A stretch of 64,000 nt of DNA. Origin: Haladaptatus cibarius D43 (GTDB lineage: Archaea > Halobacteriota > Halobacteria > Halobacteriales > Haladaptataceae). The number at the start of each line of letters is the position of its first letter. Position 1 is the first letter of the stretch. Positions 972 through 40,934 of the stretch are shown here, in pieces. The stretch covers positions 806,001 through 870,000 of the forward strand of contig NZ_JDTH01000001.1 of assembly GCF_000710615.1 (NCBI RefSeq). Reading direction: 5' to 3'. The position numbers were made by a program, and so were the translations under genes. The notes below the pieces were generated by a model. That model was given only the letters and a program-made list of their open reading frames with translations, did not search any database and was not told the DNA's origin.

Positions 972-1046
972 ACAGGACGATTTCCACTGACGCGAGTAGC
1001 GAACGACACTTAGCGGCGTCGCTCATGAGTTTGCGTCAGTGAGAAA

Positions 1047-1117
1047 TGCGCTGGCTGGGATTTGAACCCAGGTTGTGACCATGGCAAGGTCACGTGATAC
1101 CACTACACTACCAGCGC
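1047..1117 (-). tRNA. tRNA-Gly(GCC), copy 2
   Basis: The sequence is identical over 71 bases to the copy at 631-701, with the same anticodon GCC and a complete cloverleaf. A TATA-like stretch on the minus strand (about 1151-1157) lies some 35 bases upstream of the 5' end, so this copy appears to have its own promoter. The downstream flanks of the two copies are also related (gcgtcgctca ... gagaaatgcg at about 1016-1050 and 555-590). Duplication of a tRNA-plus-flank unit therefore explains the pair better than two independent genes. Confidence 0.97.
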
Positions 1118-1261
1118 AGGTTGCTTGCACTTCCTCGTATTCCCGACTACAGTATAAGACTTGCGAGTCAGAATGCCTTCGTGTGGGAATCACTCTCTCA
1201 CTTCTCTTGATTCGGAGGGTTTCAGGCGTGTGAATACGTCACGCTCCCGAATCGGAAGCGT

Positions 1262-1328: not shown

Positions 1329-2171
1329 ATGACCGTCAATATACTCGTCCCGTCGTCCCTCGTCCGGGAAGCCGAAGACAAACGCGAGGCAACTCGCAAA
1401 ATCGGCTACGTCGCCCGCGCGGCGACCATCTTCCGGGCAGATAACCTCATCGTCTTCCCCGATTCGGAAGGCGAGCGAAAATGGGGCGGCGGATTCGTCG
1501 AAACCGTACTCCGGTACGCCGCAACCCCGCCATACCTCCGAAAGGAGGCGTTCGGGAAGCAAGACGAGTTGGAGTATGTTGGCGTCCTACCGCCGCTCCG
1601 CGCACCATCGCAGACCGGCTCCGAATCCGACGATTCGGGGTCGTTAAGACAGGGAATCGTGACCGAGGTCGGACCTGAAGGGCGCGTCCGGGTCAATTGC
1701 GGATTGCAACACCCGATTTCGCTCGTCGTCCCGTCGCAAATGACGGTCGGCGAGGGGGAGCGCGTTACCGTCAGGATCTCTTCGAGAAGACCGGTTCGTG
1801 CGAAGCTCGTGGACGCCCCGCAGTCGGGCTACACAGTGATGCGCATGAACCTCTCGGCGGCCCTCGACCGCGACGATGCTGGCGTTCGAATCGCCACGTC
1901 TCGCTTCGGAGAATCGCTCTCCGTGGCGCGACTCGACGAAATCGTTGCGCAAACCGAACGCGACGGCATGACCGTCGTGTTCGGCTCGCCCGGTCGGGGA
2001 CTGCCGGAGATACTCGGGGTTGAACCCGAGCGTATCTCCGCGGTCGAATCCGGCGTACCAGCCCGGTTCGACCTCTGGCTGAATACGGTTCCGAACCAAG
2101 GCAGCGAGGTCATACGAACTGAAGAAGCGATGTTCGCTTCCCTCGCCTGCCTCAACCTCAACAGCGAGTGA
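1329..2171 (+). CDS. Putative RNA methyltransferase, SPOUT fold (DUF171 / COG2106)
   Basis: This 280-residue protein begins MTVNILVPSSLVREAEDKRE. It has the DUF171 arrangement of an N-terminal SPOUT half, an inserted OB-like beta domain around residues 100-170 (GIVTEVGPEGRVRVNCGLQ), and a C-terminal SPOUT half with the cofactor loop VVFGSPGRGLPEILG near residue 220. Related proteins are RNA uridine or SAM-dependent methyltransferases, and the archaeal gene commonly lies just before rpl3, as here (4-base spacer). That position suggests rRNA modification coupled to ribosome synthesis. I chose ATG 1329 because the upstream in-frame sequence is unlike the family and lies over the promoter. The exact target base is unknown. 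Confidence 0.85.
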   Translation: MTVNILVPSSLVREAEDKREATRKIGYVARAATIFRADNLIVFPDSEGERKWGGGFVETVLRYAATPPYLRKEAFGKQDELEYVGVLPPLRAPSQTGSESDDSGSLRQGIVTEVGPEGRVRVNCGLQHPISLVVPSQMTVGEGERVTVRISSRRPVRAKLVDAPQSGYTVMRMNLSAALDRDDAGVRIATSRFGESLSVARLDEIVAQTERDGMTVVFGSPGRGLPEILGVEPERISAVESGVPARFDLWLNTVPNQGSEVIRTEEAMFASLACLNLNSE

Positions 2172-24091: not shown

Positions 24092-24505
24092 ATGTACTCG
24101 CGGGAGCATTTCCTCATCGGCGTAGTTGTGTCGGGCCCTCTCCTCGTACCCCTTTCGGAGCGGTTCGGAACCACGCTTCTCGCCGGACTATTCGTCTACG
24201 GCGTCCTTCTTTCCGTTTTCATCGATTTAGACCACTTCGTCCTCACCCGGATTCGAACCGGGAGTTGGCGACATCTCGCGGCCTGCCTGAAAAACCCGGT
24301 CGCCGCCTTCGGTGACCAAGACTGGGTGTTCGAGGACGTGGATAGCACGGATTTAGAGCACGAACGTATCTTGTCGCACGTTCTCCTCGGGGGTGTTCTG
24401 GTGGCACTCTTGGTCTTCGTTTCGCCAGCAGTCGCGGTGTTTTCGGCTGTCGTCCTCTACTTTCACATTCTTGCTGACTTGCTTCGGGATACTGGTGTGT
24501 TGTAG
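24092..24505 (+). CDS. Small membrane protein of the YdjM/DUF457 metal-dependent hydrolase type
   Basis: The 137-residue protein begins MYSREHFLIGVVVSGPLLVP. It has about three hydrophobic segments. Potential metal ligands sit at the membrane edge: SREHFLIG at the start, FIDLDHF near residue 46, LEHERILSHVLLGG near residue 88 and HILADLLRDTGVL at the end. The H, DxDH and HxxxD pattern is that of the YdjM/DUF457 hydrolases, and the clearer relative at 56532-57026 shares it. Function in the family is not well proven. Confidence 0.65.
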   Translation: MYSREHFLIGVVVSGPLLVPLSERFGTTLLAGLFVYGVLLSVFIDLDHFVLTRIRTGSWRHLAACLKNPVAAFGDQDWVFEDVDSTDLEHERILSHVLLGGVLVALLVFVSPAVAVFSAVVLYFHILADLLRDTGVL

Positions 24506-24601: not shown

Positions 24602-24729
24602 GGATGAAGGGCGAGCGAAGCGAGGGATGGAGAAAATCGAAGATTTTCACGGGTGAGCAAACGCGAAGCGTTTGCGAGCCACGGAAAACCGGCGGTTTTC
24701 CGGTGCCTCGGAAGAGCAAAGCTCTTCCG
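24602..24729. repeat. Regular array of four different short palindromes
   Basis: Four perfect palindromes follow one another, each with two arms and a 3-base centre: gaaaatc-gaa-gattttc (24632-24648), gcaaacgc-gaa-gcgtttgc (24657-24675), cggaaaacc-ggc-ggttttccg (24682-24702) and cggaagagc-aaa-gctcttccg (24709-24729). Their starts are 25, 25 and 27 bases apart. A GA-rich unit (gcgagcgaagcgaggg, about 24611) precedes them with the same spacing. Arms differ completely between units, so this is not a simple tandem repeat. A diverged copy in opposite orientation is at 55685-55748. Confidence 0.8.
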
Positions 24730-39240: not shown

Positions 39241-39311
39241 GGGACCGTGGGGTAGTGGTATCCTCTGCGGATGGGGTCCGTAGGACTCGAGTTCGACTCT
39301 CGGCGGTCCCA
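39241..39311 (+). tRNA. tRNA-Pro(GGG)
   Basis: Acceptor GGGACCG (39241-39247) pairs with CGGTCCC (39304-39310), with A39311 as discriminator. The anticodon arm is TGCGG-ATGGGGT-CCGTA with anticodon GGG, and the T arm contains GAGTTCGACTC. No CCA is encoded. It lies 43 bases after the aspartoacylase relative and is followed by repeats of its own 3' end. Confidence 0.97.
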
Positions 39312-39700
39312 TGATTTTACGACGAACGGACGTGAGGAGAAAAATCAGTCGAGCGCCGAGCGTCGCATTCGCGCTTGCGCGATGTCGGACGAGCGTAGCG
39401 AGTCCGAAGCTCGTCGTGGAGCGAAGCGGAACGACGGTGTTCGACTCTCGGCGGTTCCACTTTTTGCGGAGCAAAAATGGGAGTATGGATGGCGAGCGAA
39501 GCGAGTCTTCCGGTAGTCCCACTTTTACGAAGTAAAATGGATGACGGAAGACGACCGACGCTGGTCAGCGTCGGTCGTCTTCCGGTAGTCCCATGATTTT
39601 GCGACGGGTTTGCGAACGTAGTGAGTGAACTCTCGTGACGAGCGTGCGAAGTCACGGTGAACGGACATGAAGAGAAAAATCAGTCGAACACCGAACGTGG
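39291..39700 (+). repeat. Repeated tRNA-Pro 3' end and flank: probable integration scars
   Basis: Bases 39291-39311 (tRNA T arm and acceptor) recur at 39439-39459 with one mismatch. The tRNA end plus flank (gtcccatgattttNcgacg, 39306-39324) recurs at 39587-39605. The flank gaacggacgtgaggagaaaa and onward (39324-39352) recurs at 39659-39687 with two G-to-A changes in 29 bases. A third partial end, cggtagtccca, is at 39511-39521. The region holds no integrase or other gene. Serial integration at the tRNA with loss of the cargo explains this best; local tandem duplication is the alternative. Confidence 0.65.
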
Positions 39701-39869
39701 CAAACCCAATGAGAACCACGCATCTGTGGATAAAATCGCGCCACGATGTACGACTCTGTTGAAAACAATTAATAAATAATTCGTTAACCTTCATGTTTTG
39801 TGTGGGCAGATATTCAAAAGTTATAATTTAAAACAAAGGTTGAAGTAATGGTGCTCTTTTTTAGTATTT
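39312..39869. other. Intergenic region behind tRNA-Pro: repeats then AT-rich promoter region
   Basis: These 558 bases contain the tRNA-derived repeats, hairpins at 39461-39477 (tttttgc-gga-gcaaaaa), 39523-39537 (ttttac-gaa-gtaaaa) and 39546-39583, and then an unusually AT-rich stretch (39765-39870) before the BKACE gene with ttataatttaaaac at about 39820-39834, a likely promoter. Possible short reading frames pass through the tRNA and the repeats and have no family features. Confidence 0.6.
39546..39583. repeat. Perfect 18-bp inverted repeat with 2-base spacer
   Basis: The arms ggaagacgaccgacgctg (39546-39563) and cagcgtcggtcgtcttcc (39566-39583) are exact reverse complements separated by gt. 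It lies between two of the tRNA-Pro end copies. It has no adjacent T-run. It could be a recombination site, a relic of an element end or a large palindromic repeat. Confidence 0.75.
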
Positions 39870-40934
39870 ATGTCTGGAAATAAAACTGCGAAGACGGCCG
39901 AAAACGCCGGTCGGCGCGACGCTCTCCATCAGAATCTCTACGACGACCTCGCGTTCAACGAACTGGAATCCTCCTCGACGTTCACGCCGGAAATGGCGAA
40001 GGAGTTCTTCCCGGTTCACCGCGAAGATTCCATCGACACGATGGACGGTCCGGTCATCATCGAATGCGCCTATCCCGGGTGGCAGGCAGGTGGCGACCAC
40101 TATCCGGCGGTGCCGGACACCAAAGAAGAACAGAGTGTGGAACTCGTCGAAAGCGTGGAAGCGGGTGCCGCGGCGGTACACGTCCACCCACGAAACGAAG
40201 CACGACGCCCGCAGTGGGAAGACCCGGAACTGCTCGCCGAGATTTTAGACCCCGTGTTCGAGGAATGCGGCGAAGTCGTCACGACGAGTCAGACGTGGAC
40301 GACCGGGCCGCACGCCGACTACGTCACGGCGACGGAGAAACTGCTCCGACTGGGCGAGGGCAACAAATACTGTCAAGGGTCGGTCGTCCTCCCGATAGGA
40401 CTGTTCGGTGCTGGCACCTACCACTCTCCGTCGTCCATCAAGGAAGGGGTCAGATTCTTCGGGGAGAACGGTATCAAACCGGTGTTCCAACTGTACGATA
40501 CGCACGTTCTCTACGATTTGAAACACCGACTGTTCGACAAAGAGGAGATGAACGAAGATTCGCACATGCTCAACCTCTACCTCGGCGCGCATCACGCGCA
40601 GACGACGAACAACGACCCGTGGTCGTATCTCAACGTCATCTCCTCTATCTACAACACCCGCGAAACCATTGAGGACTCCATCGTCGGCGTCAACCCCGGC
40701 GGGAGAAACTGGCTTCCGACGCTCATTCTCGGCCTGCTCGCTGGCGCAAACGTCGTCCGCGTCGGTATCGAGGACGCCTACTGGAAGTATCCGCACCGCG
40801 ACGAGGTGATTCAGAAGAACTCCGAGGTCATCGAACTCGCCGTGGAGTTCGCGGAGATGCTCGGTCGGCGAGTCATCACCGACCCCGACGAAGCGCGGGA
40901 GTTCCTCGGCATGGAGTACACGTCGCCGCGCTGA
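39870..40934 (+). CDS. Beta-keto acid cleavage enzyme (BKACE, DUF849)
   Basis: The 354-residue protein is a TIM-barrel Zn/Co enzyme of the family of 3-keto-5-aminohexanoate cleavage enzyme (Kce), which condenses a beta-keto acid with acetyl-CoA to give acetoacetate and a new CoA ester. Family marks: VIIECAYPGWQAGG near residue 53, the metal-binding AAAVHVHPRNEARRPQW near residue 92, and the C-terminal ANVVRVGIEDAYWKYPHRDE with the metal-ligand Glu. No lysine fermentation genes are near, so the natural substrate is unknown. The first ~50 residues form an extension relative to bacterial Kce. The upstream AT-rich region suggests an individually regulated gene. Confidence 0.87.
   Translation: MSGNKTAKTAENAGRRDALHQNLYDDLAFNELESSSTFTPEMAKEFFPVHREDSIDTMDGPVIIECAYPGWQAGGDHYPAVPDTKEEQSVELVESVEAGAAAVHVHPRNEARRPQWEDPELLAEILDPVFEECGEVVTTSQTWTTGPHADYVTATEKLLRLGEGNKYCQGSVVLPIGLFGAGTYHSPSSIKEGVRFFGENGIKPVFQLYDTHVLYDLKHRLFDKEEMNEDSHMLNLYLGAHHAQTTNNDPWSYLNVISSIYNTRETIEDSIVGVNPGGRNWLPTLILGLLAGANVVRVGIEDAYWKYPHRDEVIQKNSEVIELAVEFAEMLGRRVITDPDEAREFLGMEYTSPR

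Follow-up and report, generated by a model that had tools for sequence, protein, structure and literature searches.

Introduction

Integron attC sites are hairpins of a folded strand, with an outer stem, an inner loop and a variable tip, and they occur in arrays. The sequences described here, short units in the tails of haloarchaeal tRNA genes, likewise consist of a stem, an inner loop and a variable tip, are arranged in arrays, and have copies that start with G^TTC. Two differences are that tRNA-tail units carry no cassette genes and that their arms are derived from tRNAs. A second related group are the REP/REPIN sequences, described as short, gene-less and non-autonomous hairpin repeats that are present many times per genome, often paired or clustered, and thought to be moved as single-stranded DNA (PMC3733652). 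The tRNA-tail units resemble this REP/REPIN-RAYT system (IS200/IS605-like Y1) in being short hairpins without genes, numerous in a genome and placed in pairs or clusters. However, REP/REPIN sequences are scattered in extragenic DNA and tagged with GTAG or CGTC, whereas tRNA-tail units lie behind tRNA genes, have arms copied from the host tRNA, and occur in a genome in which we detected no Y1 transposase (see below). In comparison with the REP tags, the 5' junction is GUAGA in many units, and GCAGA, UUAGA, CUAGA and others are found too.

Two further systems are close to these units. The PATEs and MITEs of Haloquadratum walsbyi are also short, palindrome-bearing and non-autonomous haloarchaeal repeats; as far as the accessible text of their description goes, they derive from IS605-type or other transposons and have no tie to tRNA tails (PMC3119063). 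Integration of proviruses and integrative plasmids at tRNA genes by archaeal tyrosine recombinases resembles the present case in that the inserted stretch lies between direct duplications of the tRNA 3' end. In contrast to such insertions, tRNA-tail units are far smaller and gene-less, contain an additional inverted copy of the T-arm, and have a core that is common to different tRNAs. A search of the literature on tRNA tails, repeats and integration, by title and opening of the abstract and with most subscription journals outside its coverage, yielded no description of such units.

Here, we analyzed a window of 64,000 nucleotides from Haladaptatus cibarius D43 (genome G000 in our comparisons), to which all window positions below refer, and in which an initial annotation had described serial copies of the tRNA-Pro 3' end.

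Organization of the tRNA-Pro tail

The tRNA-Pro(GGG) gene is located at 39241-39311 on the plus strand (ARAGORN; Rfam tRNA model, G000:C1:845241-845311), and its 3' end is referred to as copy A. The initial annotation had recognized a further copy of the T-arm/acceptor end at 39439-39459, and our repeat comparison confirms it: this copy C agrees with the last 21 bases of the tRNA gene at 20 positions, while the best match in 3000 first-order Markov surrogates of the 400-base tail had at least five mismatches. A copy of the tRNA end with its flank, previously placed at 39587-39605, is real but lies one base further downstream, as the 19 bases at 39306-39324 recur at 39588-39606 (18/19 identical). 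The flank of 29 bases at 39324-39352 does recur at 39659-39687 as claimed (27/29); in its extended form, with 41 of 49 bases (84%), it is the longest direct repeat. Two features had been overlooked, namely an extra short end, GGTAGTCCCA, that ends at 39521, and the inverted repeats that make up the stretches between the copies of the tRNA-Pro end. Folded as single-stranded DNA, region 39312-39720 has a predicted energy of -93.1 kcal/mol, compared to a mean of -71.5 kcal/mol (s.d. 4.2) for 100 shuffled sequences, none of which was as low (z = -5.1).

On the basis of the repeats and the predicted folds, we distinguished four units, all on the plus strand. Unit 1 starts with a hairpin module, h1 (TGATTTTACGACG..GAGAAAAATC, 39312-39346), which recurs from 39654. 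It is followed by a short inverted copy of the T-arm, copy B (AGTCGA, complement TCGACT; 39347-39352), which is predicted to pair with copy C when 39312-39459 is folded, and by a core hairpin at 39353-39438 with a C-GTA-G tip at 39390. Copy C ends the unit. Unit 2 (39460-39521) is reduced and consists of a hairpin CTTTTTGC-GGA-GCAAAAATG, an inverted TGGGA, a GNA-tipped hairpin at 39493 and the short end mentioned above. Unit 3 (39522-39593), also reduced, comprises a hairpin CTTTTAC-GAA-GTAAAATG, a perfect inverted repeat of 19 bp and the same short end. The remnant of a fourth unit (39594-39702) has an h1-like start, a GNA-tipped hairpin at 39613 and the repeat of h1, B and the start of the core, without copy C. 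In unit 1, the parts thus follow one another as A, h1, B, core and C; B pairs with C, its short match being judged by eye, and the tip is of the GNA type. The covariance model R1 described below gave no match to this unit at E <= 1; since R1 misses it, the tRNA-Pro unit has to be regarded as divergent. We lean towards reading the tRNA-Pro tail as an array of tRNA-tail hairpin cassettes that belong to a haloarchaeal repeat family, non-autonomous DNA with the T-arm as its exchange point.

A gene for 354 amino acids follows the tail at 39870-40934 (plus strand); by eye, its product resembles a beta-keto acid cleavage enzyme. This gene also stands behind the tRNA-Pro tail of genomes G004 and G005. 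The tail leads toward a glycosyltransferase-like gene at about 43 kb in G001, G003, G007 and G002, and the content of neighbouring genes varies.

A common unit behind tRNA genes

We read 300 bases behind 30 tRNA genes of the window's genome, and then behind 13 more. Many of them show the same layout, which starts from the tRNA 3' end (A) and continues with hairpin h1, a T-arm copy of that tRNA in inverted orientation (B), the core hairpin and, finally, the 3' end once more as a direct copy (C). These units mostly measure 105-170 bp and contain no gene, and some tails hold two of them. Cores of the common layout contain words such as TAGACCAGACGCACGCCCG and GGAACGTCTGGGCGTGG. Behind Arg, Lys, Phe and Leu tRNAs of this genome, a second core type is present (TTAGACCGAGGTTCTGC...GCAGGTTCTCGG).

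R1 was built from an alignment of 17 cores. In this alignment, 88.6% of 272 cells of the outer stem (B with C) and the inner stem are paired, compared to 75.2% in shuffled alignments, with none of 500 shuffles as high, and pairing falls to 21-54% if the pairing partner is slid. Covariation was observed in the inner stem of the core. Two of the five measures were weaker, namely pairs with a change on both sides (22/500 shuffles as high) and further pair types (271/500). Applied to the window's genome (E up to 1), R1 gave 19 matches in 17 tails, 16 of them behind tRNA genes (one without an amino acid assigned by ARAGORN) and one behind a displaced 3' part of tRNA-Glu. The canonical member in the window lies in the tail of tRNA-Gly(GCC) (1046-1118, minus strand; ARAGORN), where B, core and C occupy 884-979 on the minus strand (G000:C1:806884-806979, 69.8 bits).

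Distribution and position of the units

R1 matches were obtained in 51 of 59 relatives (E up to 0.01), with a maximum of 38 in G004. At E up to 1e-4, 58 of 295 genomes of the phylum gave a match and all 58 are haloarchaea of the window's own order, the genomes without a match being 7 listed ones of the same order, 13 listed ones of other orders and 217 others of kinship not given. An alignment of 120 matches was derived from 90 of the 101 loci L118-L218 (11 overlapping ones omitted) and contains 116 distinct rows. Duplicate rows were collapsed for the pair counts and for the array-age, B-fit, nearest-core, junction and module tests, and they were kept in the count of positions, according to which 115 of the 120 matches lie 16-447 bases behind a tRNA gene on the same strand. 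Among the five exceptions, L165 and L217 are preceded by displaced tRNA ends, L179 and L191 have copies of tRNA-Val and tRNA-Phe ends and no tRNA gene on the locus, and L200 is oriented tail to tail with a tRNA-Ser on the opposite strand. An exact scan for the second core type found 15 stretches in Haladaptatus, Natrinema, Natronorubrum, Natronococcus, Halobiforma and Halostagnicola. All 15 have a tRNA gene upstream on the same strand within 500 bases, and near-identical cores of this type occur behind tRNAs of several kinds and genera. The units form an order-wide haloarchaeal repeat family that is located behind tRNA genes and varies between species.

Fit of the inverted arm to its own tRNA

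In 111 units, B is complementary chiefly to tRNA positions 54-65 and less so beyond. In an anchored test, 94 of 110 units had a B that matched its own tRNA more closely than it matched other tRNAs sharing the first six bases; an earlier, coarse local-alignment test of the fit on the acceptor side had been weak, with 8 of 111 in the top 5%. Where C deviates from the tRNA, B is closer to the tRNA in 25 cases and to C in 4 (8 ties), which is partly expected because C was the altered side. In these cases, no compensatory change between B and C was seen.

Structured RNA or DNA hairpins

The tails might be structured RNA, transcribed together with the tRNA as its 3' trailer or on its own, with hairpins that would act in tRNA maturation, in termination or as a small RNA. 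Judging from the available sequences, we consider this rather unlikely. The covariation in the inner stem and the orientation of the units, which in 115 of 120 cases is that of tRNA transcription, are consistent with such a function, and so is the excess of G.U over A.C pairs on the tRNA-sense strand, which amounts to 59:24 in the helices and 77:3 at junction pairs 1-2 (0:6 at pair 3, 3:2 at pair 4). This excess fits single-stranded DNA as well as RNA, however, and may be inflated by the kinship of the units. Moreover, the presence of units behind the same tRNA varies between species, which argues that they are dispensable for that tRNA, and B does not track the changes in C, even if this is partly expected as explained above.

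The hairpin tips also bear on this question. They are often C-GNA-G triloops with tandem G.A pairs, a signature of DNA hairpins. In 27,000 bases of tRNA tails we found 33 tandem-GA hairpins (X-GA-NN-loop of three-NN-GA-X'), 28 of which have GNA loops, while each of five shuffled versions that kept only the base composition contained 0-2 such hairpins with any loop. The GNA-tipped form was found 28 times on the sense strand of the tails versus 7 times on the antisense strand. Both strands of the 64-kb window together contain six, five of them on the tRNA strand in the Pro and Gly tails, including three in the Pro tail. The full tandem-GA form is carried by 28 of the 116 distinct units, and 84 of the 141 apical C-G-closed triloops shown are GNA. 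No GNRA tetraloop occurs among the tandem-GA hairpins of the tails, which likewise speaks against RNA. Mini-hairpins with GNA loops are exceptionally stable as DNA (PMC4686876). The tips suggest DNA, and leave room for a role as RNA.

The lone hairpin of this kind outside the Pro and Gly tails of the window lies at 24612-24624 on the plus strand (CGAGCGAAGCGAG). The word CGAGCGNAGCGAG, frequent in the tRNA tails of G000 and G005 (e.g., at window positions 39390, 39493 and 39613), is itself a tiny GNA-triloop hairpin with tandem G.A pairs; it may also be common in other haloarchaeal intergenic DNA.

A search of 20 loci against Rfam 15 at the gathering score gave no family over the units, a further point against an RNA function; it returned 19 tRNA matches and one L4-Archaeoglobi leader elsewhere, and no match over the tRNA-Pro tail of the window. 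The L4-Archaeoglobi ribosomal protein leader is located at L126:2292-2391 (approximately window 1675-1774, plus strand) and scored 71.9 bits against a cut-off of 34.5. Readings as a kink-turn, a bulge-helix-bulge or a primer-binding site were dropped on consideration by eye.

Variation between species and probable exchange of modules

Three of nine Haladaptatus genomes (G000, G001 and G003) repeat the tRNA-Pro end behind the gene with no more than one mismatch; the best matches in the remaining six have 7-9 mismatches. The initial annotation had named an arrangement shared by all relatives, with repeats arisen by tandem duplication and no empty-site variants, as the observation that would count against its reading; this objection does not arise, because the tRNA-Pro arrangement varies among the Haladaptatus genomes. 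In G005, tRNA-Pro joins directly onto the window sequence that follows the second copy (84% over 110 bases, E 1.9e-24), and G008 retains just a fragment of the left part of the Pro unit. A comparison of tails between G000 and G005 revealed whole stretches, each ending in a copy of the tRNA end, that are absent at exact boundaries in either direction, gain and loss being unpolarised. Sites filled in G000 and empty in G005 are those of Lys (110 bp), Val (273 bp, two units), Glu (126 bp) and Pro (148 bp); the Pro case depends on the 84% alignment over 110 bases, because its tail scored 15 against a 99% background of 18, whose upper tail is inflated since the random background includes some true partners. 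Conversely, the partners of L063 (170 bp), L066 (251 bp) and L080 (247 bp) are filled in G005 and empty in G000; the insertion in the L080 partner, with its longer piece of tRNA, may be of another kind. L079 has an additional 245 bp in G005, and the order of units in the tRNA-Phe tail (L055) is changed between the two genomes. In this comparison, no clear partner was found in G005 for L059, one partner served for two tRNA-Gly genes, and the tRNA-Leu called by ARAGORN at 24238 was omitted, as it is absent from the Rfam tRNA model list. This tRNA-Leu(CAG) (24238-24322, minus strand), which the Rfam tRNA search misses, is probably a false call.

Among 196 pairs of first units behind the same tRNA, 13 combine a like h1 with an unlike core and 7 a like core with an unlike h1, with similarity thresholds that were chosen after one swap was known; by eye, the 13 pairs represent about six distinct comparisons, some of them of multi-copy tRNA-Gly. 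At tRNA-Ser(CGA), G000 and G005 have h1 and the right flank in common, and the entire core between B and C is different. These sequence comparisons suggest that h1 and core can be exchanged separately. Of 72 units of G000, G004 and G005, 30 had their nearest core in the tail of a different tRNA within their own genome, 20 at the same tRNA in a different genome, 19 at a different tRNA in a different genome, and 3 at the same tRNA within their own genome; the corresponding shares of all pairs are 34.5%, 2.0%, 62.7% and 0.9%. The 20 nearest cores behind the same tRNA elsewhere mean that much has been inherited vertically, and cores are also shared between tRNAs. In a comparison for an age gradient along 23 arrays with several units, the distal unit was worse in 5 and the proximal one in 1, with 17 ties.

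Could these be passive repeats, ancient units without mobility that are inherited vertically and change only when sequence between A and C is deleted, when units are duplicated in tandem or when gene conversion occurs? The surplus of nearest cores behind the same tRNA elsewhere (20/72, compared to 2.0% of all pairs) would fit such a history, as would identical adjacent units (L175) and the direct copies A and C, which enable exact loss. We nevertheless consider it improbable: closely similar cores stand behind different tRNAs with arms that fit each own tRNA, unlike cores are found between like h1 modules at one tRNA, and 30 of 72 nearest cores lie behind another tRNA of the same genome, a slight excess over the share of 34.5% among all pairs. 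In addition, if tails underwent gene conversion with each other, this alternative would blur into the reading as cassettes. We are equally doubtful of an integron-like system, in which the T-loop (G^TTCRA) would be the attachment point and a putative host recombinase would insert and excise gene-less cassettes and exchange their cores as folded single-stranded DNA, the arms being rewritten for each tRNA.

Candidate movers and origins

Searching for Y1 (IS200-like) transposases (PF01797, E <= 1e-5) gave no match in G000, G004, G010, G011, G049 and G052, and the last five of these genomes carry 21-38 units each; PF01797 was found in 30 of 59 relatives. A Y1 transposase as a present requirement was therefore rejected, being absent from G000 and five unit-rich genomes. 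Tyrosine recombinases (PF00589) discriminate nothing, because they are found in 57 of 59 relatives.

On viral contigs, the first of three patterns gave 36 matches, none with the hairpin as judged by eye, and two core patterns gave none each. BLAST of one query unit against phage records found no unit, and a match of 31 bases in tail-protein genes of four records. The same kind of search with one query unit gave two hits on haloarchaeal megaplasmids, one behind an intron-containing tRNA-Glu-like sequence (by eye) and one behind tRNA-Val. We rejected a viral or plasmid origin of the core, as no units were found on viral or phage records in these searches and the plasmid copies adjoin tRNA sequences. 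The tRNA-Glu-like sequence is located on the Natrinema thermotolerans plasmid CP031304.1 (987 kb; L234:3853-3962), has an apparent intron, is not called by ARAGORN, and is followed by a canonical unit.

A large insertion is available for comparison at tRNA-Glu (C2:1015667; L282, G000:C2:1015500-1022000), where 5713 bp separate the gene from a displaced, exact copy of 42 bases of its 3' part; beyond this copy follows a hairpin unit. The insertion contains open frames, one with a TrmB-like and DUF7437 match; the first frame resembles the start of an integrase by eye, and Pfam gives no match for it. Since the unit sits behind the displaced copy, the simplest reading is that it was in place before the 5713-bp insertion, which would be a different thing. 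The 148-bp interval from A to C behind tRNA-Pro contains no integrase or element genes, and its open reading frames are overlapping and mechanical.

The initial annotation had taken the tRNA-Pro tail for the footprint of at least two lost integrase elements or for nested attachment sites of elements inserted at tRNA 3' ends, of which the variable arrangement among relatives stands, with filled and empty sites and direct 3'-end copies flanking the inserted stretch, and archaeal tyrosine recombinases do commonly target tRNA genes (PMC8371274), but the lost elements themselves are highly improbable, given that one architecture, mostly 105-170 bp and gene-less, is repeated behind many different tRNA genes, that no unit was found on viral contigs (three patterns) or phage records (one query unit), and that, at the 5713-bp tRNA-Glu insertion, a hairpin unit is still present behind the 42-base copy.

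Discussion

We favour, with a probability of roughly 0.55, the interpretation that the tails are arrays of non-autonomous DNA hairpin cassettes whose mobility we infer and for which the T-arm of the tRNA is the common exchange point. Units would be gained, lost and swapped at the DNA level, and the moving form would probably be a folded single strand, namely the tRNA-sense strand. The T-arm (about T54-C65), which is alike in all tRNAs, could serve as the shared exchange point, with a putative trans-acting recombinase or template switching driven by microhomology as the agent. Because a new unit leaves the sequence of the mature tRNA unchanged, tRNA tails would be safe harbours. It may be held against the cassette interpretation that copies A and C permit exact deletion, and that the differences between species are unpolarised.

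If the cassette interpretation is true, much of the sequence behind haloarchaeal tRNA genes, which is easily mistaken for scars of viruses, would represent an order-wide modular family of hairpins, each fitted to its host gene. This would be a warning against taking every repeated tRNA end as the footprint of a provirus. It would also make single-strand recombination at archaeal tRNA genes testable, and the units would provide natural exchange points for genetics.
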